This document shows, one piece after another, positions 35,964 to 54,709 of a stretch of 64,000 nt of DNA. The first letter of the stretch is position 1. Each line of letters opens with the position of its first letter. Below the pieces are notes generated by a model. That model did not search any database and was not told where the DNA came from. It saw nothing but the letters and a program-made list of their open reading frames with translations. The translations under genes and the position numbers were made by a program. The DNA is taken from the NCBI RefSeq assembly GCF_004114535.1, contig NZ_LBJC01000025.1, positions 1 to 64,000 on the forward strand. The letters are read 5' to 3'. Origin of the DNA: Bradyrhizobium nanningense (GTDB lineage Bacteria; Pseudomonadota; Alphaproteobacteria; Rhizobiales; Xanthobacteraceae).

Positions 35964-36179
35964 ATGGCAGAACTCGTGCCATTGTTTCCAAGGCAGGCCG
36001 TTCCACCTCTTCACGTTGACCTCGCCGGCGACGGCGCCTTTGAGGGTTATCTCGTCCCAGGCAACGTCATGCTTGCTCAAAAAATTGCCATGGAGACGGA
36101 TGAGCTTGGCGCACTGGCGGTCGCGCATCGAGTTGTGCCGGTGGTGAGGCGCGTTGGTCCGGCGCAGTCGTGGACCTGA
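35964..36179 (+). CDS. small ORF, possible truncated redoxin N-terminus
   Basis: This 71-codon ORF starts MAELVPLFPRQAVPPLHVDL behind a GAGGG site. That start is reminiscent of the N-terminus of AhpC/TSA-like redoxins (LFPRQPVPALxV), but the peroxidatic Cys region is missing and the rest is unrecognisable. It may be a remnant or chance coding. It overlaps an upstream alternative start of the next gene. Confidence 0.35.
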   Translation: MAELVPLFPRQAVPPLHVDLAGDGAFEGYLVPGNVMLAQKIAMETDELGALAVAHRVVPVVRRVGPAQSWT

Positions 36180-36196
36180 TCGCGGTAAGGGCAGGA

Positions 36197-38676: not shown

Positions 38677-38795
38677 CCTTGTCCCTACTCTGGGTTTCAA
38701 GCTGCCGTCGCATCTCGAACCGGGCAGCCCCAAGGCGTCCCTATCGGGAGTCACGCGCGCTTGTGGTCCCGCGTGACCCAGACGGCGGCACTCGA

Positions 38796-39469
38796 TCAGG
38801 CCGCTCCGTGGCGCTCGAACCTCGGGAACAGCACGTTGTTCTCAAGATGGATATGCTCCATGACATCATCAACCAACTTGGCCGTCCCGCCATAGAGCGC
38901 CGTCCACGAGCGACATGCGCCCTTGGGCAGCGCGAAGCCCTTCGCAAGCTCTCCAGGCGGCGCAGGAGTTCGCCATGCCGATCGTGATCATCCCGCATTT
39001 GCGAGATCGGGAGCTGATTGCCGGCAGCATCCTGTTGCTGCATCAACGGGAAGAGTTCTGCCTCTTCCTTCTGCATGTGCTCCTCCAGCTCGGCCTGGAT
39101 GGCCTCCAGCGTGTCGGCAAGTCCCTGCGGCACCTCGGGATGACCGGCGTGGACAGCCTCGACTTTCCGGGCCAGGCGCGCAAGCTCCGGCAGTTCGCGC
39201 CGATGCGTCTCGTGATAGCGGGTCAGGATGTGATCGATCAGCGCGCTGGTTGCTTCGGGCGCCGAACCGGATTTCCGTGGATCGAGCGCGTCGAGCGCCT
39301 CCTCTACGGCTGCAATGTCCAGAGCGCGCTTGCGGACGGCTTCGGCCAAGAGCACGTCGCCGCCGCAACAGAAGTCGAGCTTGAACCGCCGGAACACCGC
39401 GGTCGCACCGGGCAATGTCGCGGCGATTTCTCCGACGGTACGATTTCGAAGCGAGGCTTCAGTCGTCAT
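38796..39469 (-). pseudogene. Fe-S cluster repair di-iron protein RIC (YtfE/ScdA), frameshifted
   Basis: The first ~173 codons encode a RIC protein: ScdA_N (LKLDFCCGG-like FKLDFCCGGDVLLAEAV), then the hemerythrin-like part with ILTRYHETHRRELPELARL, LEEHMQKEEAELFPLM and [20 protein letters not shown]. Near 38949 the frame is lost. In the next frame the expected C-terminus continues: [19 protein letters not shown], and then [19 protein letters not shown] to a TGA at 38796-38798. That part carries the last His/Glu iron ligands. Adding one C restores 224 residues (674+1 = 675). Characterised homologues repair nitrosylated or oxidised Fe-S clusters. An NsrR-like site lies upstream. Confidence 0.85.
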
Positions 39470-39601
39470 TGTTCAGGTCCTTTCCGATCCCGATACGGCG
39501 CTTCCGGACGGAGGCGTTCTCGCTTCCCGAACGCGAAGTCCCGCTTGCTGCGGTTGTATTGACGAGATCCGTCATACAGCTCGTCCGTCACGTCCGCCGA
39601 T

Positions 39602-39624
39602 AAGATGTATTTTATATCGATGTT
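39602..39624. promoter_or_regulatory. probable NsrR operator upstream of RIC
   Basis: AAGATGTATTT-T-ATATCGATGTT has the 11-1-11 layout. The left half matches the E. coli NsrR half-site AAGATGCATTT at ten of eleven positions; the right half is weaker. It lies 133 bp before the RIC start codon. Confidence 0.55.
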
Positions 39625-39736
39625 AATCGAGGGCAACAGAAACATAATGCCTCGGTCCGGACGTCATGAGTTGTGTCGGCGTGCAAAGACTTGCGAGGCG
39701 CAAGTAGTTGTGCACGCCATTTCACGAGACTTTCGG

Positions 39737-40909
39737 CTACGGGGACCTGACCGCGGCAAGGCCGCGCTCCAGATCGGCGATCAGATCGGCCTCCGCTTCA
39801 AGACCGACCGAGAGGCGGATCAGGCTGTCGCTGATGCCGGCAGCCCGCCGCGCCTCCGGGCCCATACCGGCATGCGTCATCGTTGCCGGGTGCGCAACCA
39901 GGCTCTCGACGCCGCCGAGCGACTCGGCCAGCGTGAAGACATCAACTGCCTCGACGAAGCGGCGCACGGCGTACGTGCCGCCCGCCAGTTCAAAGCTCAA
40001 CATGGCGCCGAAACCGCTTTGCTGGACCGACGCGATGGCGTGCGCTGGATCGGAGTCGAGGCCCGGATAGTGGACCGCTGCAACAAGCGGATGTCGGGCC
40101 AAGAACTGTGCCACGGCCATGGCGTTGGCTTGCTGGCGCTCGATCCGTGGAAAGAGCGTCCGCAGGCCGCGTAGCGTCAGGTGCGCATCGAATGGCGATC
40201 CCGTCGTGCCAGCGATGTTGGCCCAGGCGGACAGCGCCTCCACATCGGACGAGGCAGCGGCAATGACCGCGCCTCCGACCACGTCGGAATGTCCATTGAG
40301 ATATTTTGTCGTCGAATGAATGACGAAATCCGCACCAAGCGCGATGGGTTGCTGCAGGGCGGGAGACAGGAATGTGTTGTCGACCGCGATCTTAGCGCCT
40401 GTTTCCCTGGCGCGTGCGGCGATCGCGCGAATATCGACCACCCGCATTAGCGGATTGCTCGGGGTCTCGATCAGCACGAGCTTCGGCTTCCGGCGGAGCG
40501 CGGTTGTAAGCGCCGGCTCGTTACCCTGGTCGACAAATGCGAGATCGAACTGCTTGCGGTCGCGCCGCGCGGAAAGCAGCCGATAGGTTCCACCGTAGCA
40601 GTCGTGCGGCGCGACCACAAGATCACCCGGCCGCAGTAGCGACAGCACGAGATCGACCGCTGCCATCCCGGAGGATGTCACGACCGCGCCGGCGCCGCCC
40701 TCGAGCTTGGCAATCGTTTCAGCCAACAGATCGCGGGTCGGATTGGCGGTTCGCGTGTACTCGTAGCCAAGGTTCCGCTCGAATCCCTCAAACGCAAAGG
40801 TGCTCGTCAGATAGAGCGGGGGCGCGACGGCCCTGAACGCGCGATCTGCGGCGACGCCGTTCGCCGCCGCCACGGTGCGCGGATCCTTTGTCTTTCCCAC
40901 CGTCGACAT
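39737..40909 (-). CDS. cystathionine gamma-synthase/lyase family PLP enzyme
   Basis: This 390-residue PLP enzyme of the Cys/Met metabolism family has YEYTRTANPTRDLLAETIAKLEGG, SSGMAAVDLVLSLLRPGD, IETPSNPLMRVVDI and the PLP lysine in HSTTKYLNGHSDVVGG. Size and motifs suit MetB, which joins O-acyl-homoserine and cysteine; gamma-lyase activity cannot be excluded. It follows cysK on the same strand by 162 bp. The pair could make cysteine and move its sulfur, inside a region with NsrR-like sites. Confidence 0.88.
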   Translation of the reverse strand: MSTVGKTKDPRTVAAANGVAADRAFRAVAPPLYLTSTFAFEGFERNLGYEYTRTANPTRDLLAETIAKLEGGAGAVVTSSGMAAVDLVLSLLRPGDLVVAPHDCYGGTYRLLSARRDRKQFDLAFVDQGNEPALTTALRRKPKLVLIETPSNPLMRVVDIRAIAARARETGAKIAVDNTFLSPALQQPIALGADFVIHSTTKYLNGHSDVVGGAVIAAASSDVEALSAWANIAGTTGSPFDAHLTLRGLRTLFPRIERQQANAMAVAQFLARHPLVAAVHYPGLDSDPAHAIASVQQSGFGAMLSFELAGGTYAVRRFVEAVDVFTLAESLGGVESLVAHPATMTHAGMGPEARRAAGISDSLIRLSVGLEAEADLIADLERGLAAVRSP

Positions 40910-41071
40910 CTCCAGAAGCCTCGTTGGCTATCACTACTGCAGTTGGCCGCGCGAAGGTAGGGCACCATCACTTGTTCCGCGCCGCTCGCGGCCTGTCACC
41001 TTCTCGCCGAGGCATCGCTCACAAGCGTTCGCCCCTTGCTCGAGCCGTCCATGCGTGTCTGTGCGGATCCG

Positions 41072-42049
41072 TCAGGCCGCCAGGCCCTGGGCGTCGAACA
41101 CTCCCTCGAATAGAACCGTCGACAGACAGCGTTCGCCGGAATCGGGCAGCACCACGACGATGGTCTTACCGGCATTCTCCGCACGCTGCGCCAGACGCGC
41201 TGCGACGGCGGTTGCGGCGCCGCTGGAAATCCCCGACAGAAGACCCTCTTCACGCGCCAGGCGCAGTGCGAACTCGATGGCCTCCTCGTTCGAGACCTGC
41301 TCGATCGCATCCACGAGCGACAGGTCGAGTACGTCGGGAACGAAGCCGGCGCCGAGCCCTTGGATCTTGTGAGGCCCAGGCTTGAGCGGCTGGTTGGCCA
41401 GCGTCTGGCTCAGCACCGGGCTGCCGGACGGCTCCACGGCCACCGACAGGATGCTCTTGCCACGGGTGCGCTTGATGTAGCGCGACACTCCGGTGATGGT
41501 GCCGCCGGTCCCGACACCGGAAACAAAAATGTCGATCGATCCTTCGGTGTCGTTCCAGATTTCAGGACCCGTCGTCTCCTCGTGGATTGAAGGATTGGCA
41601 GGATTATTGAACTGCTGCAGCAGCACATAGCGATCGGGATCCAACGCCACTAGCTCTTCGGCCCTAGCGATGGCGCCCGGCATGCCGCGCCCTCCGTCGG
41701 TGAGTATGAGTTTCGCACCGAAGGTCCTCAGCAATTTGCGACGTTCGATGCTCATGGTCTCGGGCATGGTCAATGTCAGCGGAATTCCGTGCGACGCTGC
41801 AACGAAGGCCAGCGCGATCCCGGTGTTGCCGCTGGTCGGCTCGATCAGCTCTTTGCCGGGACCGAGCAGGTTACGCCTTTCGGCATCCAGAACCATCGCC
41901 GCACCGATCCGGCACTTCACGGAATAGGCCGGGTTGCGCCCCTCGATTTTGGCGAGGACCGTGGCCTTGGCGTTGCCCACGACGTGATTGAGTCGAACCA
42001 GCGGGGTCCGGCCGATCGACCGCGCGTTATCCTCGAACCATCCAGCCAT
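41072..42049 (-). CDS. cysK: cysteine synthase A
   Basis: This 325-residue O-acetylserine sulfhydrylase has [13 protein letters not shown], the PLP lysine in [27 protein letters not shown] (substrate loop), [14 protein letters not shown] (phosphate cup) and [14 protein letters not shown]. It adds sulfide to O-acetylserine. It precedes metB. The 337-bp upstream region to the divergent DGC-domain gene should hold its promoter, but I see no clear boxes. Confidence 0.93.
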
Positions 42050-42386
42050 ATGTCACTCCTTGTCTCACGGCGCCGATCCGTCCTCGTCAGCGGCCTTGCG
42101 CGGAATTACCCATGAATGGAGAAGCGGTGACATGACCGCGGCATCAGGCTCATTGCTCTCGAACAACCAGTGAGGTCACTTGGAATGGAGGCACTGTCGA
42201 AAGCCGTTGCGGGAGAATTCTGCATCCGCAGCGGGTGCTCTCGCTAGAATGGAATTCGATGACGAAGCGGCCGGAGCATCAAAGCCTGCGCGATCGCGAT
42301 TCATGTCTTTGCGCTGAGACAACGATTTGAAGCCCTGACTTCATCTAGAGCATTGGCGCGCTCGCTTGTGGTCTGGCGGAGAAATC
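42050..42386. other. 337-bp divergent intergenic region
   Basis: This gap lies between cysK (minus) and the DGC-domain gene (plus). No gene is supported. The only visible signal is the GGCGGAG ribosome site before 42387. No NsrR-like half-site was seen. Confidence 0.35.
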
Positions 42387-42872
42387 ATGATGAAGAGTAA
42401 GGCTGAGCTGCCCCTTGTTTATTCATGCTCAGGCTGTTCGAGCGTTGCCCAAATGGCAAATGACGTCGCGGTACGTCTGGACCGAGCGGAAGAGGCGGAG
42501 ATGTCCTGCATTGCCGGTGTTGGCGGCGACGTCGGCCCACTCGTAAGGATCGCAAAATCAGGCAGGCCGATTCTGGCGCTTGACGGCTGTTCTCTCCGTT
42601 GCGCCGCGCAATGCCTTGAGCGGCAAGGGGTGAGCCCGACCGCCCATCTCGTGCTGACGGACATCGGCATCAAAAAACGCTTTCACGCAGGATTTGATGA
42701 GGCCGAAGCGAGCGCGATCTATCACAGGGCAGTCGCCGAGCTGAGGTCAATCGGGACGAGTTCGCTTTCAGATGCGGAAGCATCAGCGAAAAGGGGCGGC
42801 CCGGGACAGGATATCCCAGTCCGTGACGGTCCCCCGACATCGAAAGGCGTTCGGCACGTCATGGCGAAATAA
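42387..42872 (+). CDS. DGC-domain putative zinc-binding protein
   Basis: This 161-residue protein has the pattern of the DGC domain: LPLVYSCSGCSSVAQMANDVA with a CxxC, the central MSCIAGVGGDV, and RPILALDGCSLRCAAQCLERQG with the DGC motif and two more cysteines. The domain is believed to bind zinc. Homologues occur in respiratory or sulfur contexts; the role is unknown. ATG 42387 follows GGCGGAGAAATC; a second ATG (42390) follows at once. The Ser/Gly/Pro-rich C-terminus is not conserved-looking. Confidence 0.8.
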   Translation: MMKSKAELPLVYSCSGCSSVAQMANDVAVRLDRAEEAEMSCIAGVGGDVGPLVRIAKSGRPILALDGCSLRCAAQCLERQGVSPTAHLVLTDIGIKKRFHAGFDEAEASAIYHRAVAELRSIGTSSLSDAEASAKRGGPGQDIPVRDGPPTSKGVRHVMAK

Positions 42873-42986
42873 TCGCCTGCGCACCCGCAATAGTCGAAGG
42901 CGGCCTTCCGCCAGCCACCAGTGCGACTAGACTAGCCCCCGCGTATTTGGCGATCTCCTCGTATCCTGCCTCGGGTCGTCATGCCG

Positions 42987-43319
42987 TCAGCCGCCCGGAC
43001 GGCGCAGCGCACTGGGGATCGGGCGATCACCGAAATCGATAGCGGACCTGCGAAGGACGCGCCCCGTCACATCCGTGCTCAGCCGCGCGCGGCGGCTGCG
43101 GTGGAAAAATGTGAGCCTAAATTCGCCGTCATGATCATCGATCCCGCGTTCGCAGACGCTCGTAATCGCGCCTTCGTGCATCAGGACCGGTACGGCGGCG
43201 GCCGAAACATTCAGGAGTTCGCCGATCAACTCAGCATCGACGTAGAACGTGGTATCGCTCCGCTGGACCATGCTGCGGGAGGGCGCAGGCGGATTCGCTT
43301 GATGGGGCCTATCCATCAT
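42987..43319 (-). CDS. DUF6522-like conserved protein in the NsrR module
   Basis: This 110-residue soluble protein has FYVDAELIGELLNVSAAAVPVLMHEGAITSVCERGIDD, then FRLTFFHRSRRARLSTDVTGRVLRRSAIDFGDRPIP, a pattern I associate with the small DUF6522 family. Function is unknown. The start is 28 bp from the palindromic NsrR-like operator shared with the divergent DUF2249 gene, so co-regulation by nitric oxide is likely. Confidence 0.7.
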   Translation of the reverse strand: MMDRPHQANPPAPSRSMVQRSDTTFYVDAELIGELLNVSAAAVPVLMHEGAITSVCERGIDDHDGEFRLTFFHRSRRARLSTDVTGRVLRRSAIDFGDRPIPSALRRPGG

Positions 43320-43346
43320 CAGTATCTCCTTGCCGAGGTGCCCAAT

Positions 43347-43369
43347 AAGATATATTACTAATATATCTT
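43347..43369. promoter_or_regulatory. NsrR-type operator, perfect 11-1-11 palindrome
   Basis: AAGATATATTA-C-TAATATATCTT. The perfect symmetry extends to 43344-43372 (14-1-14). It lies between divergent genes, 28 bp and 20 bp from their start codons, where bound repressor would block both. Confidence 0.85.
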
Positions 43370-43388
43370 ATTGTAGCGAGGTCAACCC

Positions 43389-44150
43389 ATGACCATTCTG
43401 GCCCAACTGGAAAGCGGAGCGGAAGTGTGGCCCGTGCCGGCCGGACTTCCCAGCGCAAGGCTTCCTCCGAAGACCATGGCCAAACGCGCGGCCAAGACGC
43501 GGATAGCGCTCTCCACCGCCGAGCTCTCGTTCCGGATCTTCGCTATTTTTCGCGCGCATCCGCATATCAATAACGTACTGACGCACATTTCACGTGCGGA
43601 TTGGGCGCAAGTCGAGCGAGCGCTCAATTCCATTCTCGATCCGGCGGCCGCAACCGGGCAGCTTTCACCGCTGGCGCAGAACATCATCGATCTGATGTGC
43701 GCCGAGCGCGGCATCACCGGGAAGATTCTCAAGCCCTGTTTCCACGCCGCCCTGGGCAAACTGCTCGAGCCGAAACGTGCAGAGCGGCTGATCGAACATA
43801 TCGAGGCGCTGTATCGCGATCTCGAACGGAGAGCAGAACAGCCAGCGCCCGCGTCGCACGAGCTACCTAAGGAGCCGTCCATGACCGAACCAAACGCCGA
43901 CGAACGCGTGATCAACGTTGCCGACATCGATCCAAAGTACCGTCACGCGATCCTCTTTCGCTTGTTCGAGCATCTTGCTTCGGATCAATCGCTTCAGATC
44001 GTCGTGGATCATGATCCCAGACGGCTCCGCCTGCAGCTTGAGGCGCAGCATGGCTCACGTTGCAACTGGTCGTATCTGGAGCGGGGACCGGACTTCTGGC
44101 GCGTGCGCCTGCGGCTGCTCCCACCCGAGGGAAAGGAGGCTTCGCGTTGA
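43389..44150 (+). CDS. DUF2249-domain protein with a novel N-terminal helical part
   Basis: This 253-residue frame has two parts. Residues ~30-150 are mostly helical (SFRIFAIFRAHPHINNVLTHI, LIEHIEALYRDLERRAEQP) with no family I know. Residues 165-253 are a DUF2249 domain (VINVADIDPKYRHAILFRLFEHL, IVVDHDPRRLRLQLEAQHG, WSYLERGPDFWRVRLRLL). At 43881 an ATG preceded by AAGGAG would express the DUF2249 domain alone. DUF2249 genes recur next to NO-detoxification and denitrification genes. The operator is 20 bp upstream. The next gene overlaps its stop (TTGA). Confidence 0.78.
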   Translation: MTILAQLESGAEVWPVPAGLPSARLPPKTMAKRAAKTRIALSTAELSFRIFAIFRAHPHINNVLTHISRADWAQVERALNSILDPAAATGQLSPLAQNIIDLMCAERGITGKILKPCFHAALGKLLEPKRAERLIEHIEALYRDLERRAEQPAPASHELPKEPSMTEPNADERVINVADIDPKYRHAILFRLFEHLASDQSLQIVVDHDPRRLRLQLEAQHGSRCNWSYLERGPDFWRVRLRLLPPEGKEASR

Positions 44151-44383
44151 GCGATTCACATCACTATGTGCAGCCCGTCAATGAGGCGGAGCAGGTCTAT
44201 CTTGAGTCGCTGATCCGCGAGGATTTCGCGCGGTGTCATCCGGGCGAGACGCTGGAAGACGTCAAGCGCCGCGCTGTCTTCTCGAAGGAGGACAAGGGGC
44301 TGCTTCGGGATTGGATGGCGGTCGCTGCCGGCCGTGCCGCAGCCGATCGAGCCCACCCGCCGTTTCTGCAAGCTGCCGAATAG
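44147..44383 (+). CDS. small protein of the NsrR module
   Basis: This 78-residue protein starts with TTG at 44147, overlapping the stop of the DUF2249 gene, behind AAAGGAGG. Its body is helical: EAEQVYLESLIREDFARCHPGETLEDVKRRAVFSKEDKGLLRDWMAVAAG. It is soluble and unrecognised. Translational coupling to the DUF2249 gene and the shared operator place it in the NO response. It converges on nsrR. Confidence 0.72.
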   Translation: MSDSHHYVQPVNEAEQVYLESLIREDFARCHPGETLEDVKRRAVFSKEDKGLLRDWMAVAAGRAAADRAHPPFLQAAE

Positions 44384-44395
44384 CGGATCGACCCA

Positions 44396-44824
44396 TCAGG
44401 CCGCGGGCCGCACCCCAAAATCCCTCGGCCTGAGCATCAAGTCGGCGAGCGTGTACTTGTCGAGCACGGCATTGAACGCGTCCAGGCCCTCATGCAGAAC
44501 GCCGCGCAAGCGGCAGCAGCGGGTGATAACACACGCGTTGTCGGCGCCGAAGCATTCGACCAGAGCAAAATCGGGCTCGGTGGCGCGAATCACCTCGCCC
44601 AGCTTGATCTTGTGCGGTGGTTTCGCCAGCGCGAGGCCGCCCGAGCGGCCTCGCACCGCGTTCAGATACCCGGCCCTGGTGAGCGTATTGGCGACCTTCA
44701 TCAGATGAGCGCGGGAGATATTGTAAACGCCGGATACCTCTTCGATCGTGATCAAACGATCCTGCCTTGCCGCAGCGTACATCAGCAGCCGGAGGCAATA
44801 ATCGGAAAAATTGGTCAAGCGCAT
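44396..44824 (-). CDS. nsrR: NsrR-type Rrf2 nitric-oxide-sensing repressor
   Basis: This 142-residue Rrf2 protein aligns well with E. coli NsrR as I recall it: MRLTNFSDYCLRLLMYAAA at the start, winged helix YNISRAHLMKVANTLTRAGYLNAVRGRSGGLAL, then LGEVIRATEPDFALVECF. Cysteines at 91, 98 and 103/104 fit the three-Cys Fe-S cluster. The end NAVLDKYTLADLM matches too. NO attacks the cluster and releases the repressor. It is last on the minus strand after the ferredoxin operon, with a possible site of its own at 44888. Other Rrf2 members (IscR, RirA) are less likely given the operators. Confidence 0.9.
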   Translation of the reverse strand: MRLTNFSDYCLRLLMYAAARQDRLITIEEVSGVYNISRAHLMKVANTLTRAGYLNAVRGRSGGLALAKPPHKIKLGEVIRATEPDFALVECFGADNACVITRCCRLRGVLHEGLDAFNAVLDKYTLADLMLRPRDFGVRPAA

Positions 44825-46847: not shown

Positions 46848-46985
46848 ACGCAATCTCATACCATGCTTTTGTATTTTGAAGATATCAGATGCCAAAATGG
46901 GACGCGAGGCGTCGCCAAATCGCCTCCCGCTGCCGTCATCGCGCCGCTAGGCTCGTTGCGAGACCAAGGGGGCGAGGAGATTGTG

Positions 46986-48623
46986 ATGACGCGACGGGCC
47001 AGCGACGTTCTGCTCGAGATCCTGCGCGACGAAGGGATTTCTCATGTCTTCGGCAACCCCGGATCGACCGAGATGCCGTTGATGGACGCGCTCGTCGATG
47101 CGTCCGATATCACCTATGTGCTCGGACTTCAGGAAGCGACGGCCGTCGGCATGGCGGATGGTTGGGCGCTGACGTCCGGCAGGACCGGATTCGTCAACCT
47201 TCATGCCATGGGCGGGCTCGGCAACGCCATGGGAGTGCTGGTCGCCTCCAAGGCGAGCGAGACCCCGCTCGTCGTCACGGCCGGCCAGCAGGATACCCGT
47301 CATCTGATGACCGAGCCGTGGCTCTCCGGCGATCTTGTCGCGCTCGCCGAACCTGTCACCAAATGGGCCAAGGAAGTCCGACGTGGCGAGGACCTCGGTG
47401 CCGCATTGCGTCGCGCCTTCGAAATCGCCCGCACGCCGCCGTGCGGCCCGGTCTTCCTTTCACTGCCGATGGACGTGCTCGACCAGCCGATCAGCGGATC
47501 AACGCCGGCGGCCTCGGCGGCGCCGCGTCTCGGCGCATCCCCCGATTCCGATGCCCTCGCCGATACGCTGGCCGGGTTCGATCCCGAAAAGGTCATCATT
47601 CTGCTTGGCGACGATCTGCCGGCCTCCGCAGCTCCCGGCATTGTCGCGATTGCAGAGGCCGGTGGCTACGCGGTCTGGGGCACGCAACTTACCTCGCGCT
47701 CCGCCTTTCCCTCGGCTCATCCATGCTGGGCCGGAGTCTTCAAGCCCGACTTCGCGGTGATGCGCGAACATCTGGAAACGGCGCAGGCTCTGGTGCTAGT
47801 GGGCGGTCGCGCCTTCGTCGCCTATCCCTATCGCGATGTGAGGCCGATACCTGAGGGGTTCAAGGTCCTTCATGTGGCGGATAATGCCGAGGCGTTGGGC
47901 CGCGAGCACCCTGCCGACGCAGCGCTGCTGGGCAACATCGGCGCAACGCTCCAGGCCGCCGCGATCCGTCTCAGCGGCCTCGTCAAGGGCCCGGAGGTCG
48001 CCGCGCGATTGGCACGCAGAGCCGCGACCAAGCGCGATTACGAGGCGGCGATACGTGCGCAAATCATGAGCGACATGACGGAATTGCCGCTGAGCCCCGA
48101 TGCGGCCGTGCTGACCGTGTCGGACGCATTGCCAGCCAACACCTTGCTCGCGAATGACTCAGCCGCCACGTTCGGCAAGGTCCAGGACATCTTGACGACT
48201 CGGCCCGGTCGCTACTTCTTCGCTCGTGGTGGCGTCCTCGGGTGCAACATGCCCGCGGCCGTCGGCGCAGCGCTGCTCCATGACGGTCCGGTTGCGTCCT
48301 TCGTTGGAGACGGCGGCGCGATGTATTCACCGCAAGCGCTGTGGAGCGCCGCGCGCTATCGGGCCAACGTCCTGTTCTTCATCTTCAACAATCGACGCTA
48401 CGGGGTGCTGCAAAATATCGCGCGCCAGCTGGGCTGCACGAATGCCGTCGCCGGGCGATTCGTCGGCATGGACGTCAACGATCCCCCGATCGATTTCCAG
48501 GCTTTGGCCGCATCGATGGGCGTCCCGGCGGTACGGGCCGACGCTCCCGATGCCATTCGAGCCGCGATCGTTGACGCGCTTGGGCGCAGTGGCCCTACAC
48601 TGATCGAAATCGCGGTGAAGTAA
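46986..48623 (+). CDS. benzoylformate decarboxylase-like ThDP enzyme
   Basis: This 545-residue ThDP enzyme has the N-terminal pyrimidine domain with the catalytic Glu in GLQEATAVGMADG, NPGSTEMPL (active-site Ser of benzoylformate decarboxylases) and VNLHAMGGLGNAMG (the first active-site His). The C-terminal ThDP motif GDGGAMYSPQ ... FNNRRYG is intact. The second active-site His of the Pseudomonas enzyme is not found at the expected place (RAFVAYPYRDV reads Pro there), so the substrate may be another 2-oxo acid. The start ATG 46986 follows GGCGAGGAG. The divergent Lrp regulator suggests control by an amino-acid-like inducer. Confidence 0.8.
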   Translation: MTRRASDVLLEILRDEGISHVFGNPGSTEMPLMDALVDASDITYVLGLQEATAVGMADGWALTSGRTGFVNLHAMGGLGNAMGVLVASKASETPLVVTAGQQDTRHLMTEPWLSGDLVALAEPVTKWAKEVRRGEDLGAALRRAFEIARTPPCGPVFLSLPMDVLDQPISGSTPAASAAPRLGASPDSDALADTLAGFDPEKVIILLGDDLPASAAPGIVAIAEAGGYAVWGTQLTSRSAFPSAHPCWAGVFKPDFAVMREHLETAQALVLVGGRAFVAYPYRDVRPIPEGFKVLHVADNAEALGREHPADAALLGNIGATLQAAAIRLSGLVKGPEVAARLARRAATKRDYEAAIRAQIMSDMTELPLSPDAAVLTVSDALPANTLLANDSAATFGKVQDILTTRPGRYFFARGGVLGCNMPAAVGAALLHDGPVASFVGDGGAMYSPQALWSAARYRANVLFFIFNNRRYGVLQNIARQLGCTNAVAGRFVGMDVNDPPIDFQALAASMGVPAVRADAPDAIRAAIVDALGRSGPTLIEIAVK

Positions 48624-48855
48624 CCCGGATGCTGCCAGCGCACCGCTCGAATCTGTCCGCAGCAGGGGTGGCTCAGCGAATCTCCGTGATGGCTTGACCA
48701 TTTGGCATAGCTGGATATCGCGGCGGTCCAACCACAGTCACCGCTCCAAGAGGTGCGACTGAGAACTATTGCGGCTTCTTAGGGCGCCAGTTCATCGATC
48801 AGCCGATCATGTTGTACTCGAGCGCGAAACAAGATACGCGTCGACAGACGGCCCC

Positions 48856-50280
48856 ATGACGCTTGCGAACTCACACCTCTCCAACTCGTCGCGGACTTAC
48901 GACGTCGTGGTCGTGGGGGGCGGAAACGCGGGACTTTGCGCGGCGATTTCTGCGCGTCAGGCAGGAGCGTCGGTGCTTCTGCTCGAGCAGGCGCCAAGAG
49001 CTCTAAGGGGCGGAAGCACCCGCCATGCTCGCAATTTGCGAGTCAAGTGCGACCCACCAAGTGTCCTTCCAGATCAAGCTTATTGCGGGGACGAATACTG
49101 GGCCGACTTGGCGCAAGCGACTGCTGGGCATACCGATGAAAACCTCGCGCGCCTCATGATCGAGGGGTCAGCCCACATAGTCCGCTGGATGGAGCAATGT
49201 GGCATCCAATTCGAGAAGTCGCGCATCGGAAATCGCCCATCGCGGAAAACAGCCTTTCTTCTCGGAGGAGGCAAGGCCTTGCTGAACGCATATTACCGGA
49301 AGGCAGAGCGGATCGGCGTTGATATCGCCTACGACACTGAAGTCCTTTCCGTGCCACTCGATCACGGCGTGGCTTGCGAGATACATGCCATTAGCAATTG
49401 TGCCCTGACGAGAGTCCGAACCAGAGCGGTTGTTGTTTCGTGCGGCGGATCACAGGCGAACACGGATTGGCTCCAGCATTACTGGGGAGACGCGGCAAAT
49501 CGCTTTGTCATTCGGGGCGCGCGCCAGGCGAAGGGGCGCGTTCTCGCGAGTTTGCTCGATCAGAACGTGGTGCCGATCGGTGAGCCCGGGCAGTGCCACA
49601 TGGTTGCGGTCGATGCGCGGGCGCCGAAGTTCGACGGTGGCATCGTCACGCGGTTGGACTGCGTGCCTTACAGTGTTGTCGTCGATCGTAACGGTCAAAG
49701 GTTCCATGATGAAGGTGAGGAGGTCGGACCAAGAAGATTTGCAGTCTGGGGCAAGCTCGTTGCGCGATGTCCGGACCAGATTGCATACGCGATTCTCGAC
49801 TCAAAGGCCGAAGGTCTCTTCCGACCATCCTTCTATCCGCCGATCCGGACGCAAACGATCTCCGAATTGGCAGTGGAGCTTAAGCTGAATCCAGCGGATC
49901 TGGCGACAACGATCCACGCTTTCAATGCCGCGATCACAGACGCATCCGATCGAAAAGCAGGTCGTTTGGCGCGAGCCGAGGACATTGTACCGCCGAAGTC
50001 AAAGTGGGCGATGTCGATCGACACGCCTCCGTTCAGTGGCTATCCGCTTCGACCCGGCGTGACCTTCAGTTATCTCGGCGTGAAGGTGGACGATCATGCG
50101 CGCGTGATCATGGCAAGCGGTCGACCCGCGGCGAACGTGTTTGCCGCGGGCCAGATCATGTTGGCGAATATCTTGGCGAGCGGATATCTTGCCGGGGTCG
50201 GAATGACCCTTGGGACGGTCTTTGGGCAAATCGCGGGACGCTGTGCCGTGCGTGCTGCACGCTCCTGGTCCCCCAGATGA
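48856..50280 (+). CDS. FAD-dependent tricarballylate dehydrogenase-like protein
   Basis: This 474-residue flavoprotein of the fumarate-reductase/succinate-dehydrogenase family has DVVVVGGGNAGLCAAISAR (FAD-binding) and LEQAP, then GCHMVAVDAR-like substrate parts, PVLPDQAYCGDEYWADL and a C-terminal FAAGQIMLANILASGYLAGVGMTLG FAD loop. The layout is that of TcuA, which oxidises tricarballylate to cis-aconitate. TcuB, the usual electron acceptor, is not adjacent. ATG 48856 is chosen over longer in-frame starts. It converges on the dihydroorotate-dehydrogenase-like gene. Confidence 0.78.
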   Translation: MTLANSHLSNSSRTYDVVVVGGGNAGLCAAISARQAGASVLLLEQAPRALRGGSTRHARNLRVKCDPPSVLPDQAYCGDEYWADLAQATAGHTDENLARLMIEGSAHIVRWMEQCGIQFEKSRIGNRPSRKTAFLLGGGKALLNAYYRKAERIGVDIAYDTEVLSVPLDHGVACEIHAISNCALTRVRTRAVVVSCGGSQANTDWLQHYWGDAANRFVIRGARQAKGRVLASLLDQNVVPIGEPGQCHMVAVDARAPKFDGGIVTRLDCVPYSVVVDRNGQRFHDEGEEVGPRRFAVWGKLVARCPDQIAYAILDSKAEGLFRPSFYPPIRTQTISELAVELKLNPADLATTIHAFNAAITDASDRKAGRLARAEDIVPPKSKWAMSIDTPPFSGYPLRPGVTFSYLGVKVDDHARVIMASGRPAANVFAAGQIMLANILASGYLAGVGMTLGTVFGQIAGRCAVRAARSWSPR

Positions 50281-50473: not shown

Positions 50474-51223
50474 CTATTGCCGACATAGAGAAATTGCGCC
50501 AAGTGGGCCACTCCACATGAGCGCACGGCAGCATTGAACAAGGCTGGCGCCGGCATCCAAGCGATTGCGCATGTCGCGACGGCGATGAATCCCCCCAACC
50601 GCCACAACCGGCATCAGGAAATGAAGATGCGCGATAAGGGTGGCATCGGCGCCCTCGACAACGATTCCGTCGTAACCTTCTGTCCTGGCAGCTTCGGCCA
50701 GATCACCGAGATGCGGTTCGGTCGGGACCTTGAGCAGCAATGGCACTGAACGGACACCTTGAGCGGTCCGGCGCATGAGAGCCAGGCTTTCGCGCAGCGG
50801 CCAGCGCAATGAACCGCCCTTACCGCACAAGCTAAGACTGACGTAATCCGCCAGCGGAGCCAAGGCTTCAAGGCACTCGGCCACATCGTTCATTGCTTGG
50901 ACGGAAGGGCTTCCGTCGTCCGGGCCGATCACGATGCCAAGCCTGGCCGGGCCGGGACGGCCGGCCGCGACCAAGGCCTGGGACAACGATGGACGCCCAA
51001 CCGCGCCTCTCAGGCAGACGGTTCCGATCTCGGCGAACCCGAAGCCGAGACGACCAAATCGGCGACCGATGTGTCCGAAGGAATCGAATCCCGCCGCGAC
51101 CCCGATGGGCGAGGCGAACCGCAGGCCGAAGGCGCTGGTCGCCATGAAGCCGCGCTGCGCAAGTGGCAGGCGACAGGCCAGATCGCTGGCGACGAGCGCA
51201 AGGCGATGGACGCGCGCCTTCAA
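50474..51223 (-). CDS. dihydroorotate dehydrogenase-like flavoprotein of the pqq locus
   Basis: This 249-residue FMN-type TIM barrel resembles class 2 dihydroorotate dehydrogenase. AFGLRFASPIGVAAGFD, PLLLKVPTEP and VVAVGGIHRRRDMRNRLDAGASLVQ (FMN phosphate site) are kept. The catalytic segment, normally VNISSPNTPG, reads YVSLSLCGKGGSL, so the Asn and catalytic-loop residues are lost, and the substrate is probably not dihydroorotate. The TTG start overlaps the stop of the upstream membrane gene (TTGA). It is the last gene of a minus-strand run with pqqD, pqqE and pqqA. Confidence 0.75.
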   Translation of the reverse strand: MKARVHRLALVASDLACRLPLAQRGFMATSAFGLRFASPIGVAAGFDSFGHIGRRFGRLGFGFAEIGTVCLRGAVGRPSLSQALVAAGRPGPARLGIVIGPDDGSPSVQAMNDVAECLEALAPLADYVSLSLCGKGGSLRWPLRESLALMRRTAQGVRSVPLLLKVPTEPHLGDLAEAARTEGYDGIVVEGADATLIAHLHFLMPVVAVGGIHRRRDMRNRLDAGASLVQCCRALMWSGPLGAISLCRQ

Positions 51224-51726
51224 TCGAGCAGCAAGCCGTGCGCTCCCGCTACCATCAGGAACAGGAGCGGAATCGATAGCAGGGTGTTGACCCTCGCCGA
51301 CAGGAACGTCACCCGCGAGCATTGCACCCTCTCTTTGTAGGAAGCAGGGACAAAGCCCAGAACCTTCTTCTGGTGCGGCCAAAGGACGAGCCAAAGGTTG
51401 AGCACCATCATGGTGCCAATCCAAAATCCCATGCCGATGGGAGCAGCAGTCCCCGACAGCGTCACGGCATCCATCAGCATTCCATTTCGGTGCAGCATGG
51501 CGAGGCCTGTCGACCAGACCACCACCGAGGCCCAGCGGAAGGCGCCATGTTCGCGTCGAAGCCGAGACTGAAAGTCATTCCCGGTCGCGGCCGCCGGTTC
51601 AGTATCGTCTGCAAACGGAATGAAGTCAGGCCGGGAAATGAAATTGGCGTAGTTGTGGCCGATCCAGATCAGCGCACCGCCGACGTGCAGCCAGCGCAAG
51701 ACGAGATCGATCAACCCGGCATGCAT
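51220..51726 (-). CDS. urate-oxidase N-terminal-like membrane protein
   Basis: This 168-residue protein has four hydrophobic helices. LVLRWLHVGGALIWIGHNYANF, then FRWASVVVWSTGLAML, GFWIGTMMVLNLWLVLWPHQKKVLG and ARVNTLLSIPLLFLMVAGAHG match the pattern of the Urate_ox_N (PuuD-type) membrane domain, including WPxQKKVLG and ARxNTxLSxPxLFxM. Conserved His residues in helix 1 may bind heme. Its start overlaps the stop of the 41-residue gene (ATGA), and the flavoprotein start overlaps its stop, so the three are coupled. A redox partner role in the membrane is inference. Confidence 0.75.
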   Translation of the reverse strand: MHAGLIDLVLRWLHVGGALIWIGHNYANFISRPDFIPFADDTEPAAATGNDFQSRLRREHGAFRWASVVVWSTGLAMLHRNGMLMDAVTLSGTAAPIGMGFWIGTMMVLNLWLVLWPHQKKVLGFVPASYKERVQCSRVTFLSARVNTLLSIPLLFLMVAGAHGLLLD

Positions 51727-51851
51727 CACGGATGTCCAAGGACAAGAAGGCGGATTGCGAGCGCAAGAGCAATAGTCAGCGCCAAACCGCAACCGACAGT
51801 GCCCCCGAACGAGTCGAGGATCGTCTTGCGAAAGGGAGGCGGCGGCGCCAT
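51726..51851 (-). CDS. 41-residue single-pass membrane peptide
   Basis: MAPPPPFRKTILDSFGGTVG is followed by a hydrophobic helix GLALTIALALAIRLLVL and a short tail. An upstream in-frame ATG is at 51857. Its stop overlaps the next start (ATGA). It lies 56 bp after pqqA in the same direction. I know no family; the coupling to neighbours supports that it is real. Confidence 0.65.
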   Translation of the reverse strand: MAPPPPFRKTILDSFGGTVGCGLALTIALALAIRLLVLGHP

Positions 51852-51907
51852 GAGCATCCAAATAAATAGGCGGAAAAGGGACCCGAAGGTCCCTCTCCCG
51901 TCCCGAC

Positions 51908-51982
51908 TTAGCGGACGAAGACGTAAGCGGTGACTTCGAAGCCCATACGCAGGTCGCAATAGGCAGGCTTTTCCCACTTCAT
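51908..51982 (-). CDS. pqqA: PqqA precursor peptide
   Basis: This 24-residue peptide is the ribosomal precursor type for pyrroloquinoline quinone. It reads MKWEKPAYCDLRMG at the start; Glu16 and Tyr20 stand in the canonical FEVTAY context that PqqE cross-links. An AAGGGAGA ribosome site precedes the ATG. It lies 84 bp behind pqqE, although pqqA normally comes first, and no pqqB or pqqC is found in the window. A GCCGATACTTTCGGC hairpin lies between pqqE and pqqA. A Cys at position 9 is unusual. Confidence 0.9.
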   Translation of the reverse strand: MKWEKPAYCDLRMGFEVTAYVFVR

Positions 51983-52066
51983 GGCGCACTTCTCCCTTTG
52001 AGTGAACGTACACGCTTGAAACGTTAGGGGCCACCGACTGCCGAAAGTATCGGCAATAAGTAGTAT

Positions 52067-53200
52067 CTACTGTGTCGAGGAAGCTACGCCGACCTCGCGC
52101 ATCACCAGCGGGCGCGAATTGCGCTGCGGCCGATGTGCTTCGACGATTGCCTCCTCGACCAGATGATGGAATGGCGACTTCGAGCAGGCCGGATCGGGGT
52201 TGGCGCCATCACCGGTCAGCAAATAGGCCTGGCAGCGGCAGCCTCCGAAATCCTTCTCCCGTTCACTGCAACTCCGGCATGGCTCCTTCATCCAGGCGTC
52301 GCCGCGATAGGTGCGGAATGCCGGCGACTCTTTCCATATCCATTCCACCGAATGCTCCCGCACCGAGGGGAAGTTGAGACCCTTGAGCAGGCGCGCCTCC
52401 TGGCAGGGTAGGGCGACGCCGTCGGGGGCGATGGTCATGATGATGCTACCCCACCCGTTCATGCACGCCTTGGGGCGTCCGTTGAAATAGTCTGGAATGA
52501 CGAAGTAGATGACCATCTTCTTGCCGATCCTCTGACGAAAGGAGTTGATGGCCTCTTCGGATGCCTTCAGCTCCTCGAGCGACGGCATCAGTTCGTCACG
52601 GTTGACCAGCGCCCAGTTGTAATATTGGACGTTGGCGAATTCGACATAATCAACACCGAGGTCCAGCGCCATCTCGAGATAGGCGCCGGTGTGGGCAATA
52701 TTTTGCCGGACGACAGGGATGTTCAGAACGACCGGGAAGCCCTGCGCCTTGATCTCGCGGATCATAGCGATCTTGTGGTCGTGGACCGACGCGCCCACCA
52801 AAGCGTTGGTGGTCGCAGCATCGTGGGATTGCAGACTGACCTGGATCTGCTTCAGGCCGGCGGCTTTGAGACGGGACAGCCGCTTGGCACTCATGCCGAC
52901 CGTCGAGGTGATCAGGTTAGTGTAGTAGCCGAGGCGATCTGCCTCGGCCACCAAATCCTCGAGGTCGCGGCGCATCAATGGCTCACCGCCAGTGAAACCC
53001 AATTGCAGGCTGCCAAGCGTCCGGCTCTCGCGCATGACCCGCTTCCACTCCTCGGTGGACAGCTCATTTTGATAGGCGTCAAGATCGAGCGGGTTGCTGC
53101 ACCACGGGCATTTAAGCGGGCAACCATAGGTCAGCTCGCACACCAGCCACAATGGCCGGCCCTGCCCATCAAGTCTTAACGCGGGTCCAGCCTTTGTCAT
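52067..53200 (-). CDS. pqqE: PqqA peptide cyclase (radical SAM)
   Basis: This 377-residue radical SAM enzyme forms the carbon-carbon link between the Glu and Tyr of PqqA, the first step of PQQ synthesis. The CxxxCxxC motif is TYGCPLKCPWCSNP (Cys27, 31, 34). LGFTGGEPLMRRDLEDLV is the GGE motif. The SPASM region has CMNGWGSIIMTIAPDG, LPCQEARLL and EPCRSCSEREKDFGGCRCQAYLL. ATG 53200 overlaps the 3' end of pqqD by about 30 bases. Upstream in-frame extension is not family-like. Confidence 0.95.
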   Translation of the reverse strand: MTKAGPALRLDGQGRPLWLVCELTYGCPLKCPWCSNPLDLDAYQNELSTEEWKRVMRESRTLGSLQLGFTGGEPLMRRDLEDLVAEADRLGYYTNLITSTVGMSAKRLSRLKAAGLKQIQVSLQSHDAATTNALVGASVHDHKIAMIREIKAQGFPVVLNIPVVRQNIAHTGAYLEMALDLGVDYVEFANVQYYNWALVNRDELMPSLEELKASEEAINSFRQRIGKKMVIYFVIPDYFNGRPKACMNGWGSIIMTIAPDGVALPCQEARLLKGLNFPSVREHSVEWIWKESPAFRTYRGDAWMKEPCRSCSEREKDFGGCRCQAYLLTGDGANPDPACSKSPFHHLVEEAIVEAHRPQRNSRPLVMREVGVASSTQ

Positions 53201-53456
53201 TGGCAATCTCCAGAAATGCGAGGATGTCGGCAGAAATATCCTGCCCGTCACACAGGGCCGTCAATTCTGCGACCACATCATCGATGCGGCGACCGCCGAC
53301 GACCCGCTTCAGAATCTCTGCGGCGGATGAGTTGAGCTTCACGATTCCCTCGGGATAGAGAAGGACGTGAGCTTGCTCGGCCTCCTCCCACCGCAACAGA
53401 TACATCGGATGGAGTTCGACGATGTCATTTGGGTCAAGCCGGGCGGCTTCAGTCAT
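53169..53456 (-). CDS. pqqD: PqqD peptide chaperone
   Basis: This 95-residue RiPP recognition-element protein binds PqqA and presents it to PqqE. The pattern LHPMYLLRWEEAEQAHVLLYPEGIVKLNSSAAEILKRV, followed by IDDVVAELTALCDG and ILAFLEIANDKGWTRVK, is standard PqqD. It is first in the minus-strand run and overlaps pqqE. ATG 53456 is chosen. A divergent M48 metalloprotease gene starts 147 bp away. Confidence 0.93.
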   Translation of the reverse strand: MTEAARLDPNDIVELHPMYLLRWEEAEQAHVLLYPEGIVKLNSSAAEILKRVVGGRRIDDVVAELTALCDGQDISADILAFLEIANDKGWTRVKT

Positions 53457-53602
53457 GCATCCTCCCAATTGCCGATTTGTCTTTGTTGCTTTTTCTGTTG
53501 TTGATGCCCGAGGCGGTCATCCGTTGGACTGCCGCGCGGTTATTGTGTTGGCCGCGATCGCGAAGCAGCAATAGTCCTTAGGTACTAGTCTGGAAGCCGA
53601 AC

Positions 53603-54709
53603 ATGATCGGATTGCTGTCCACCACGATCGCGGGATTGGCGCTCGGTGTGGCGGCGATCGAGATCTGGATTGCTCGCCGTGGATTGGCTTGGCTCGGACG
53701 ACGGACAGAAGGCGCGGTGCTTGTCCGTGAATCCGAGCGAATCCGGCGGCTGGCGTTGCGAGGAGGCGCGCGATCGCTCCTTGCGCTGACTGCGGCATTG
53801 GGAGGGGTGAGTGCTCTGTCTCAGCTTAGCGGTCCGCTGCTGTTGTTGCCGATCGCGGTAGCGGTGCCGACATTGCTTGATGTTTCAGTGGCGGCGTGGA
53901 TCCAGCGCAGGGGGCGAACTCGGGAGTGGCGCGCTTTTTTTCGGGAGCGCTTACGGCTCTTCTACGCGGAGGGGCGGCAAAGCGTTCCAGTCGCTGCCGT
54001 GGTGGGATGGGCGATGCCGGAGACCGGGTGGTGGCTGGTGGCTTGGGTGGGATTCGCGATCACACTTGTCTTGCGGGAGGCAGTTCCGCCGTCCGGCCGC
54101 GTCCTGTCCGCGATCGAGTCAGGGTCGTTGGCGACAGAGATCGAGGCGGTGATGCGACGGTCCGGACTGGAAGGAACGACGGTCCGAATTGCAAACGACC
54201 TACAACGGCCGAGCCAGATGAACGCGCGCGCCCAAGGGATCGTCGCGCGACGGTGTATTCTTCTTGATGCCACGCTGGTTGCCGGAATGCCAACCGAGCA
54301 GGTACTTGCTGTGGTGGCCCATGAGGCTGGTCACCTCGCGGGCTATCATCGCGAGTGGTTCACCGTCTGGCGCCTGACGATCGGATTGGCAACGGTGCTT
54401 GGGATCGCACAGCTGGGTGGCGGATGTGCACCACGGGAGAGCGTGGCGATCTTGCTATTGGCGTTGCCTGCGCTGGGATTGCTGGTGCGGCCGGTGGAGA
54501 CTTGTTTGATCCGCAGGTGGGAGGCTGCCGCAGACCGCCACGCGGCTAATCTCGCCGGAGCGACGCTCTTTGCAGAAGCGCTGGCACGGCTATTCGGCGC
54601 CAACTTGGCGGCCCCGGAACCGGAGCCGGTATGGGCGAGCTTCCATCATCCGCACCCGCCGCCGGTAAGGCGTCTCGATCGCCTCGCAGGGCCGCCAGGC
54701 GGTCCTTGA
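53603..54709 (+). CDS. membrane M48 (Ste24-like) metalloprotease
   Basis: This 368-residue protein has an N-terminal transmembrane segment (GLLSTTIAGLALGVAAIEIWI), two more at ~60-100 and a pair at ~130-150, the zinc motif LAVVAHEAGHLAG (HExxH, residues ~233-245), a further membrane segment, and the third ligand region RRWEAAADRHAANLAG. A C-terminal FHHPHPPPVRRLDRL is typical of M48. It should be a zinc endopeptidase in the membrane. It is divergent from pqqD, so a role in cleaving modified PqqA is a reasonable but unproven idea; the usual PqqF/PqqG are M16 enzymes. Confidence 0.88.
   Translation: MIGLLSTTIAGLALGVAAIEIWIARRGLAWLGRRTEGAVLVRESERIRRLALRGGARSLLALTAALGGVSALSQLSGPLLLLPIAVAVPTLLDVSVAAWIQRRGRTREWRAFFRERLRLFYAEGRQSVPVAAVVGWAMPETGWWLVAWVGFAITLVLREAVPPSGRVLSAIESGSLATEIEAVMRRSGLEGTTVRIANDLQRPSQMNARAQGIVARRCILLDATLVAGMPTEQVLAVVAHEAGHLAGYHREWFTVWRLTIGLATVLGIAQLGGGCAPRESVAILLLALPALGLLVRPVETCLIRRWEAAADRHAANLAGATLFAEALARLFGANLAAPEPEPVWASFHHPHPPPVRRLDRLAGPPGGP

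Follow-up and report, generated by a model that had tools for sequence, protein, structure and literature searches.

The window analysed here is a stretch of 64,000 nucleotides from Bradyrhizobium nanningense (positions 1 to 64,000 of NZ_LBJC01000025.1, labelled contig C67 of the 8.29 Mb genome G000). At positions 50474-54709 it contains a locus for the pyrroloquinoline quinone (PQQ) synthesis proteins PqqD, PqqE and PqqA, joined to a Urate_ox_N-like membrane protein (PUU), a flavoprotein resembling dihydroorotate dehydrogenase (DHOD) and an M48 metalloprotease, without pqqB or pqqC. In related loci the same gene set includes an aminotransferase (AT). We consider it fairly probable that this cluster type is a second, anaerobic PQQ module in which, as we infer, PUU, AT and the DHOD-like protein stand in for PqqB and PqqC, and that the window locus is a form of it. 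The predicted PqqADE chemistry and the membership of the cluster in PQQ-using, mostly denitrifying cells are supported by homology and co-occurrence.

A separate PqqE clade and its tie to PQQ

The window locus was compared with 80 loci from other genomes, the best 80 of 199 confirmed ones, giving a set of 81 whose gene content was annotated by tblastn and then tallied (labels L, G and C denote loci, genomes and contigs). The order pqqA-pqqD-pqqE-PUU-AT-DHOD is found in 66 of the 81 loci, and PUU-AT-DHOD lies behind pqqE in 73. Among the 15 incomplete loci, seven end with their contig on the side of the missing gene (L037, L044, L046, L049, L055, L068, L092), four consist of pqqE-PUU-AT-DHOD while pqqA and pqqD adjoin pqqB-pqqC (L079, L088, L090, L080), and two gave no DHOD match with tblastn (L067, L097). 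The order pqqD-pqqE-pqqA was encountered only in the window and in Paramagnetospirillum caucaseum (L034). AT is present in 78 of the 81 loci and was not found at the locus in these two genomes; L044, the third locus that lacks it, is cut short by a contig end.

The PqqE proteins that have PUU as a neighbour, a criterion independent of the PqqE sequence, all fall into one clade (87/87, support 0.959) that includes none of the 41 other PqqE proteins. This tree was built with FastTree and rooted at the midpoint, after removal of 28 of 155 matches (same-locus copies, and canonical Bradyrhizobium proteins beyond six) and addition of the window PqqE. The CxxxCxxC motif is present in 81/81 cluster PqqE proteins. 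An EVTAY-type PqqA was found in 76 of the 81 loci with a search pattern that required W, R, GFE and T-A-Y, the invariance of which is thus built in. The final R, the P of W-x-x-P and the V after E also occur in 76/76 of these peptides, the first two being beyond the demands of the pattern, and 64 of the 76 end with EVTAYVYVR. All six canonical PqqA peptides matched by the same pattern end with EVTMYFANR.

PqqC is encoded in 74 of the 80 genomes with the cluster, i.e. 49/51 (G000 and the genomes of 50 loci) and 25/29 (those of the other 30 loci, two of which lie in one genome), and in 0/14 control genomes. Fifty of the 51 genomes gave a match to a quinoprotein alcohol dehydrogenase, 48 of these matches being over the cut-off. 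Both pqqB and pqqC lie within the fetched stretch of 14 of the 81 loci, six of which (L099, L107-L109, L111, L112) have a full canonical set next to the cluster.

PqqE genes were also counted genome-wide in the 51 genomes, at an E-value threshold of 1e-80, which might overlook a second PqqE present as a short fragment. Eighteen genomes have one PqqE match only, and five of these are without PqqC. In 12 genomes with pqqB-pqqC the cluster PqqE is the sole PqqE found, none other standing beside pqqBC: P. caucaseum, two Sedimenticola, Noviherbaspirillum, Herbaspirillum, Motiliproteus, Terasakiella, Billgrantia campisalis and four metagenome-assembled genomes (MAGs). G105 was removed from this count, which thereby went from 13 to 12, as both its pqqC genes sit at the end of a contig and an adjacent pqqE would fall outside it. 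The Sedimenticola genome G109 was retained despite a pqqC at a contig end (the count without it is 11), because in the sister strain G110 pqqB-pqqC runs into the cluster and the cluster contig of G109 begins just before pqqA. The arrangement in G110 (L072) is pqqB-pqqC-pqqA-pqqD-pqqE-PUU-AT-DHOD-M48-creatininase. In Noviherbaspirillum G114, pqqB-pqqC-pqqA-pqqD, with an EVTAYVYVR peptide, is divergent from pqqE-PUU-AT-DHOD. The P. caucaseum cluster has pqqB-pqqC and a quinoprotein gene about 12 kb away on the same 49-kb contig, on which the peptide of the cluster is the only PqqA-like one found. The most economical explanation for the 12 genomes that have pqqB-pqqC and in which only the cluster PqqE was found is that the cluster PqqADE would yield the same cross-linked precursor as is used by PqqB.

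These data bear on the two options left by an earlier note on this DNA. A variant PQQ supply locus is supported by the frequency of PqqC, by the pqqB/pqqC genes within the 14 loci and by the 12 genomes with a sole PqqE. A pathway to a different PqqA-derived cofactor becomes less likely, given the same 12 genomes and the co-occurrence with PqqC. The note added that a sole pqqB/pqqC pair dependent on this pqqADE set would make the locus an ordinary, split PQQ pathway; such an arrangement is seen in P. caucaseum but not in the genome of the window.

Six genomes have neither PqqC nor a PqqB over the cut-off (G138, G147, G929, G935, G939, G945), the PqqB match of G929 reaching 101.8 bits for a cut-off of 245. 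In four of the six, the match to a quinoprotein alcohol dehydrogenase exceeds the cut-off. As support for a synthesis independent of PqqB and PqqC, these genomes are weak.

Association with NosZ and FNR-type boxes

NosZ is found in 47 of the 51 genomes. The match is over the curated cut-off in 41; five further ones, scoring 375-386 bits across almost the entire model (G098, G110, G119, G138, G147), presumably represent the second NosZ clade, and G144, where NosZ is in two pieces, is counted among the 47. The phylum sample of 396 genomes contains at least three carriers (G000, G523, G170), too thin for a contingency test, and 398 Pseudomonadaceae genomes were used for this purpose. Among them, 33 carry a cluster PqqE (at least 580 bits, the next best match being at 448.5), and all 33 have a further PqqE match. 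NosZ was detected in 32 of these 33 carriers versus 75 of the 365 non-carriers (Fisher p 3e-19, uncorrected for kinship).

The palindrome TTGAY-N4-RTCAA, which we take to be the FNR/ANR/DNR consensus, is present within 300 bp upstream of the cluster pqqA in 29 of 76 loci, these upstream regions including loci where pqqA comes later than the first gene. In 200 shuffled sets the mean was 0.095 and the maximum 1. The same box precedes 8 of 508 other open reading frames of at least 150 residues in these loci, and 0/7 canonical pqqA genes. The strict form TTGAT-N4-ATCAA gave 15 exact matches in the 76 regions versus 0.02 expected. The distance from the start of the box to pqqA is 174-185 nt in 22 of the 29 loci, 205-219 nt in six (L074, L078, L084, L085, L086, L095) and 84 nt in L067. 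A NarX-like sensor kinase family is encoded in 12 loci, one scanned member scoring 474.4 for a NarX cut-off of 578.

A second conserved element, approximately CGACCAA-N16-CCAAAGTC-TATTAA, was read by eye from an alignment of 20 loci; it is located after the FNR-type box and before pqqA in Pseudomonas (L098, L099, L100, L101, L103, L104, L107 and others), with similar letters in the Halomonas and Marinobacter types. It looks like a further promoter or regulator site. The Rfam search on seven whole loci returned tRNA only, and therefore no known RNA leader in these loci.

Predicted roles of PUU, AT and the DHOD-like protein

Across an alignment covering 38 PUU proteins out of 80, His14, His24, His60 and His163 are invariant, as are several arginines, and one further histidine is nearly so. 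The AlphaFold model of PUU is helical (predicted local distance difference test, pLDDT, 88.0); no PDB sequence match was obtained, and no PDB fold match at an E-value of 0.001 or better. We would guess from the four invariant histidines that PUU binds heme or quinone. PuuD urate oxidase consists of a full membrane domain and a cytochrome c domain. PUU, with 168 residues, covers 75 of the 295 positions of the Urate_ox_N profile, matches no further Pfam domain at E 0.001, and was rejected as a PuuD urate oxidase.

AT of the related loci resembles the phosphoserine aminotransferase SerC and shares its class V fold. When aligned to the 4xk1 chain, the lysine that binds pyridoxal phosphate (PLP) and the tryptophan are present in 78/78 sequences, and the arginine for the substrate carboxylate in 77/78, with one gap. 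The difference lies in His41, Arg42 and Arg329, which we take to be the phosphate-binding residues (E. coli SerC numbering): position 41 is Phe in 78/78, position 42 is Arg in 0/78, and position 329 is Arg in 3/78, with one gap, while His328 is retained in 77/78. With the phosphate-binding His-Arg pair replaced in 78/78 sequences, a phosphoserine aminotransferase was rejected. Because the PLP lysine is kept while the phosphate-binding residues are replaced, AT should be a PLP enzyme for a phosphate-free substrate.

The DHOD-like proteins are diverse, the 27 compared being 24-36% identical to the window copy, and they retain the flavin-site glycines, a lysine and the GG and GA-VQ motifs. The AlphaFold model of the window protein (pLDDT 90.8) has quinone-type DHODs as its best PDB matches (E 1.7e-14). 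A true dihydroorotate dehydrogenase was discarded, the best score being 100.3 bits for a cut-off of 267 of the quinone-dependent type and under every DHOD equivalog cut-off listed.

For the anaerobic PQQ module the following route can be proposed. PqqD would hand the special PqqA to PqqE, which would cross-link the Glu and the Tyr of E-V-T-A-Y just as in ordinary PQQ synthesis, a step supported by homology and by the genomes where the cluster PqqE is the sole PqqE found. A protease (M48 and/or others) may then free the cross-linked unit. M48 is encoded in 14 of the 81 loci, the window counted, and a creatininase-family protein downstream of M48 in five (L070, L072, L087, L089, L096), presumably of the family of the mycofactocin peptidase MftE. 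In the full cluster, PUU, AT and the DHOD-like protein would finish the cofactor without oxygen (O2), in place of the O2-dependent PqqB and PqqC. The DHOD-like enzyme could perform a ring dehydrogenation next to a carboxylate, akin to the conversion of dihydroorotate to orotate, and the electrons could reach ubiquinone through either PUU or the DHOD-like protein, allowing nitrate or N2O respiration to replace O2. UbiU and/or UbiV, encoded by genes of O2-independent ubiquinone synthesis, are present in 14 of the 81 loci (in L035, the sole locus tested, UbiU, UbiV and UbiT are over their NCBIfam cut-offs); this neighbourhood suggests an O2-independent hydroxylase as a possible partner, in these 14 loci only.

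Several points weigh against such a module. PQQ formation by the cluster is predicted from sequence, and an aminotransferase would be expected to strip the nitrogen that PQQ retains. None of the cluster genes encodes an obvious O2-independent hydroxylase. The P. caucaseum locus has neither AT nor DHOD, and the window copy, without AT at the locus, may be incomplete as a module. NosZ went undetected in 4 of the 51 genomes, G145 and G146 giving no match and G099 and G105 short weak ones, and the Fisher p overstates independence because 30 of the 33 Pseudomonadaceae carriers belong to one genus. In 47 of the 76 upstream regions there is no FNR-type box, the window and P. caucaseum among them; neither has one ahead of pqqD, and the box of the window at 53069 falls inside pqqE. 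All six PqqC-less genomes are MAGs by title, in which one lost contig would remove both pqqB and pqqC. One of them, G945, holds a partial second PqqE, and therefore an assembly gap is likely there, and for G935 and G939 no match to TIGR03075 was found at E 1e-50.

The cluster could alternatively make a different PQQ-like cofactor: the peptide cross-linked by PqqADE would be converted via PUU, AT and the DHOD-like protein into a deaminated PQQ relative that quinoproteins would use in anoxia. In mycofactocin synthesis, MftE and MftD process the cross-linked peptide. A PLP enzyme with a remodelled pocket, a flavoenzyme in the cluster and the creatininase-family protein of the five loci would fit such a pathway, and most carriers retain PqqC (74/80), as if the cluster made another product. 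However, in the 12 genomes discussed above the only PqqE found must also serve PqqB and PqqC, which implies a product of the PQQ pathway, and PqqC and quinoprotein dehydrogenases accompany the cluster in nearly every genome. We regard this alternative as unlikely. The same low likelihood is given to its more explicit form, a new deaminated PQQ-like quinone made from a dedicated PqqA, switched by FNR-type regulation in denitrifiers and loaded into quinoproteins when PqqB and PqqC cannot work.

The locus in Bradyrhizobium nanningense and related systems

The window proteins were assigned to families by Pfam and NCBIfam profile scans, which, with the reading frames, confirmed the gene content given by the earlier note: pqqD, pqqE, pqqA, a membrane peptide, PUU and the DHOD-like gene on one strand, the reverse one, with a divergent M48 gene. 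PqqD, the peptide chaperone (53169..53456, reverse strand, a TTG start at 53468 being possible), scores 76.1 bits with TIGR03859 for a cut-off of 46 and also has a Pfam PqqD match; a second PqqD model, NF002535, gives 87.2, under its cut-off of 101. It is 71% identical to its P. caucaseum counterpart. The cross-linking enzyme PqqE, a radical S-adenosylmethionine (SAM)/SPASM protein of the alternative clade (52067..53251, reverse strand, starting at an ATG near 53200 or a GTG at 53251), reaches 478.5 bits with TIGR02109 (cut-off 381.35). Residues 28-369 align with the solved PqqE structure 6c8v with retention of the Cys motifs, this alignment of the window PqqE being the basis for its SPASM cysteines. 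The precursor PqqA, of 24 residues (MKWEKPAYCDLRMGFEVTAYVFVR; 51908..51982, reverse strand), contains E-x3-Y as EVTAY, matches Pfam PqqA and scores 36.2 bits with TIGR02107 (cut-off 20); the P. caucaseum peptide is identical.

A 41-residue peptide with a single hydrophobic stretch is predicted by translation at 51726..51851 (reverse strand), and a comparison by eye found a similar one at the same place in P. caucaseum (L149 5563-5820). It is followed on the same strand by the gene of PUU (51220..51726; Pfam Urate_ox_N 42.3 bits) and that of the DHOD-like protein (50474..51244; Pfam DHO_dh), whose start is uncertain, from 51148 to 51244. The M48 membrane metalloprotease is encoded on the forward strand (53603..54709; Pfam Peptidase_M48 63.6 bits, HExxH present). 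Overlapping starts and stops had been described throughout; they are real for pqqD/pqqE, membrane peptide/PUU and PUU/DHOD, but short gaps separate the others (84 nt from pqqE to pqqA, about 56 nt from pqqA to the 41-residue peptide). Also seen by eye was a CxxCH protein resembling a c-type cytochrome, which adjoins the M48 gene of the P. caucaseum cluster (L149 2095-2907).

The absence of pqqB and pqqC noted earlier holds at the locus but not for the genome, since both genes are on contig C73. A genome-wide check recovered a complete pqqABCDE set there, with PqqB at C73:70883-71800, PqqC at C73:71866-72573, PqqD at C73:72688-72879, PqqE at C73:72972-74045 and a canonical PqqA ending in KAPKIVEVPCGMEINMYVSATRK immediately before pqqB. 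The window locus is therefore a second set, and a split pathway was set aside for this genome. The window copy keeps PUU and DHOD, with no AT at the locus, and would be a second PQQ supply in G000, where pqqABCDE is joined by five PQQ-type dehydrogenase genes over the cut-off and by nosZ. Its NosZ frames are at C76:537016-538920 and C70:256857-258683, one of them full and the second lower-scoring, NosZ-like and matched in two pieces. A third PqqD-like domain (C56:59700-59891; 31.1 bits, over the cut-off) lies inside an open frame of 410 residues.

The conservation of gene order that the earlier note proposed as a check is strong in other genera (66/81), but within its own genus the cluster-type PqqE is limited to G000, i.e. 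1 of 98 genomes. The other 94 with a PqqE match carry copies at 43-48% identity only, and 3 of the 98 are without any match at the threshold. The closest relative of the window PqqE is that of P. caucaseum (84% identical), followed by Hyphomicrobium (65%), and the G+C content drops from 0.64-0.66 to 0.585-0.63 across about 32-54 kb of the window. For these three reasons the locus is probably a diverged, horizontally acquired form of the conserved cluster.

It could also be that the window copy alone is a decaying, functionless remnant of a transferred cluster, a view that would fit whatever the full cluster does. The missing AT, the lack of an upstream box, the single occurrence in the genus and a G+C content below that of the flanks are in line with decay. 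On the other hand, the frames that are left are open, P. caucaseum has an identical PqqA and an 84% identical PqqE, and both genomes share the same rearranged order; we find decay improbable. In an ordinary extra supply, the cluster would deliver precursor to the canonical PqqB and PqqC of the cell, with accessory roles for PUU, AT and DHOD in transport, processing or electron balance. This agrees with the complete pqqABCDE of the window genome and with P. caucaseum, whose pqqDEA has the sole PqqE found, pqqB-pqqC about 12 kb off and neither AT nor DHOD beside it, but it is improbable, as PUU-AT-DHOD in 73 of 81 loci, mostly of denitrifiers and often with FNR-type boxes, would be hard to understand if the O2-dependent PqqB and PqqC were always needed.

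Other genes around the locus were recorded. Directly adjoining it on the opposite strand (window 46863-50280) are a thiamine pyrophosphate (TPP) enzyme like benzoylformate decarboxylase, under its cut-off, and a TcuA-type tricarballylate dehydrogenase, over its cut-off; we know of no link between either and PQQ. At 38741-44824, within the low-G+C stretch shared with the locus, a gene group resembles a nitrosative-stress response, with a Ric/YtfE-like Fe-S repair protein and an NsrR-like Rrf2 regulator (both under their cut-offs), DUF2249 and DGC-domain proteins, a cysteine synthase and a cystathionine gamma-synthase. A YVTN-type beta-propeller is encoded at 36170-37201; its match to the PQQ-catabolism-associated propeller model is weak (47.9 bits, cut-off 287.3).

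PQQ-dependent methanol dehydrogenases are described in a 2024 paper (PMC11102522) as of limited use in strict anoxia, because PQQ synthesis is regarded as dependent on O2. The cluster offers a concrete candidate, open to testing, for the missing anaerobic PQQ route: a gene set that moves between phyla branches, is often FNR-type-boxed and has the radical SAM step in common with the pathway through PqqB and PqqC. If true, the anaerobic module would explain how denitrifiers use quinoproteins without O2. The cluster as such is already in print. The part of PMC12423496 that deals with it describes a pqqAED-puuD-serC-pyrD cluster in Hyphomicrobium denitrificans, names further denitrifiers with it, reports that Hden_0551-0553 transcripts fall in sHdrR and SoxR mutants, as do denitrification transcripts, and offers O2-independent PQQ synthesis as speculation. 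The window shares these gene families (pqqA, D, E, PUU and DHOD are all present) and the association with denitrifiers. It differs by the lack of serC, by a pqqA located after pqqE, by the extra membrane peptide and the divergent M48, and by its Bradyrhizobium-like genome. The present analysis contributes the PqqE clade, the genomes with a sole PqqE, the FNR-type boxes, the remodelled pocket of AT and, for the window and P. caucaseum, the rearranged form without AT; the first three were not found in searches of open-access papers.

A peptide precursor, a PqqD-like chaperone, a radical SAM/SPASM enzyme and a flavoenzyme are also found in the mycofactocin system (MftA-F), and the creatininase-family protein of five cluster loci adds to this likeness. 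In contrast to mycofactocin, the cluster has a PqqE-type and not an MftC-type enzyme, PqqA and not MftA, and a DHOD-like flavoenzyme. Mycofactocin was rejected for the window, PqqE scoring 86.7 bits with TIGR03962 (MftC) for a cut-off of 265. With canonical pqqABCDE(F), the locus has in common a PqqA with E-x3-Y, PqqD and PqqE, all over NCBIfam equivalog cut-offs. Unlike the canonical set, the window locus has no PqqB or PqqC; the cluster has PUU, AT and DHOD added and a PqqE of a separate clade, and the window PqqA ends with TAYVFVR, whereas the six canonical peptides end with TMYFANR.

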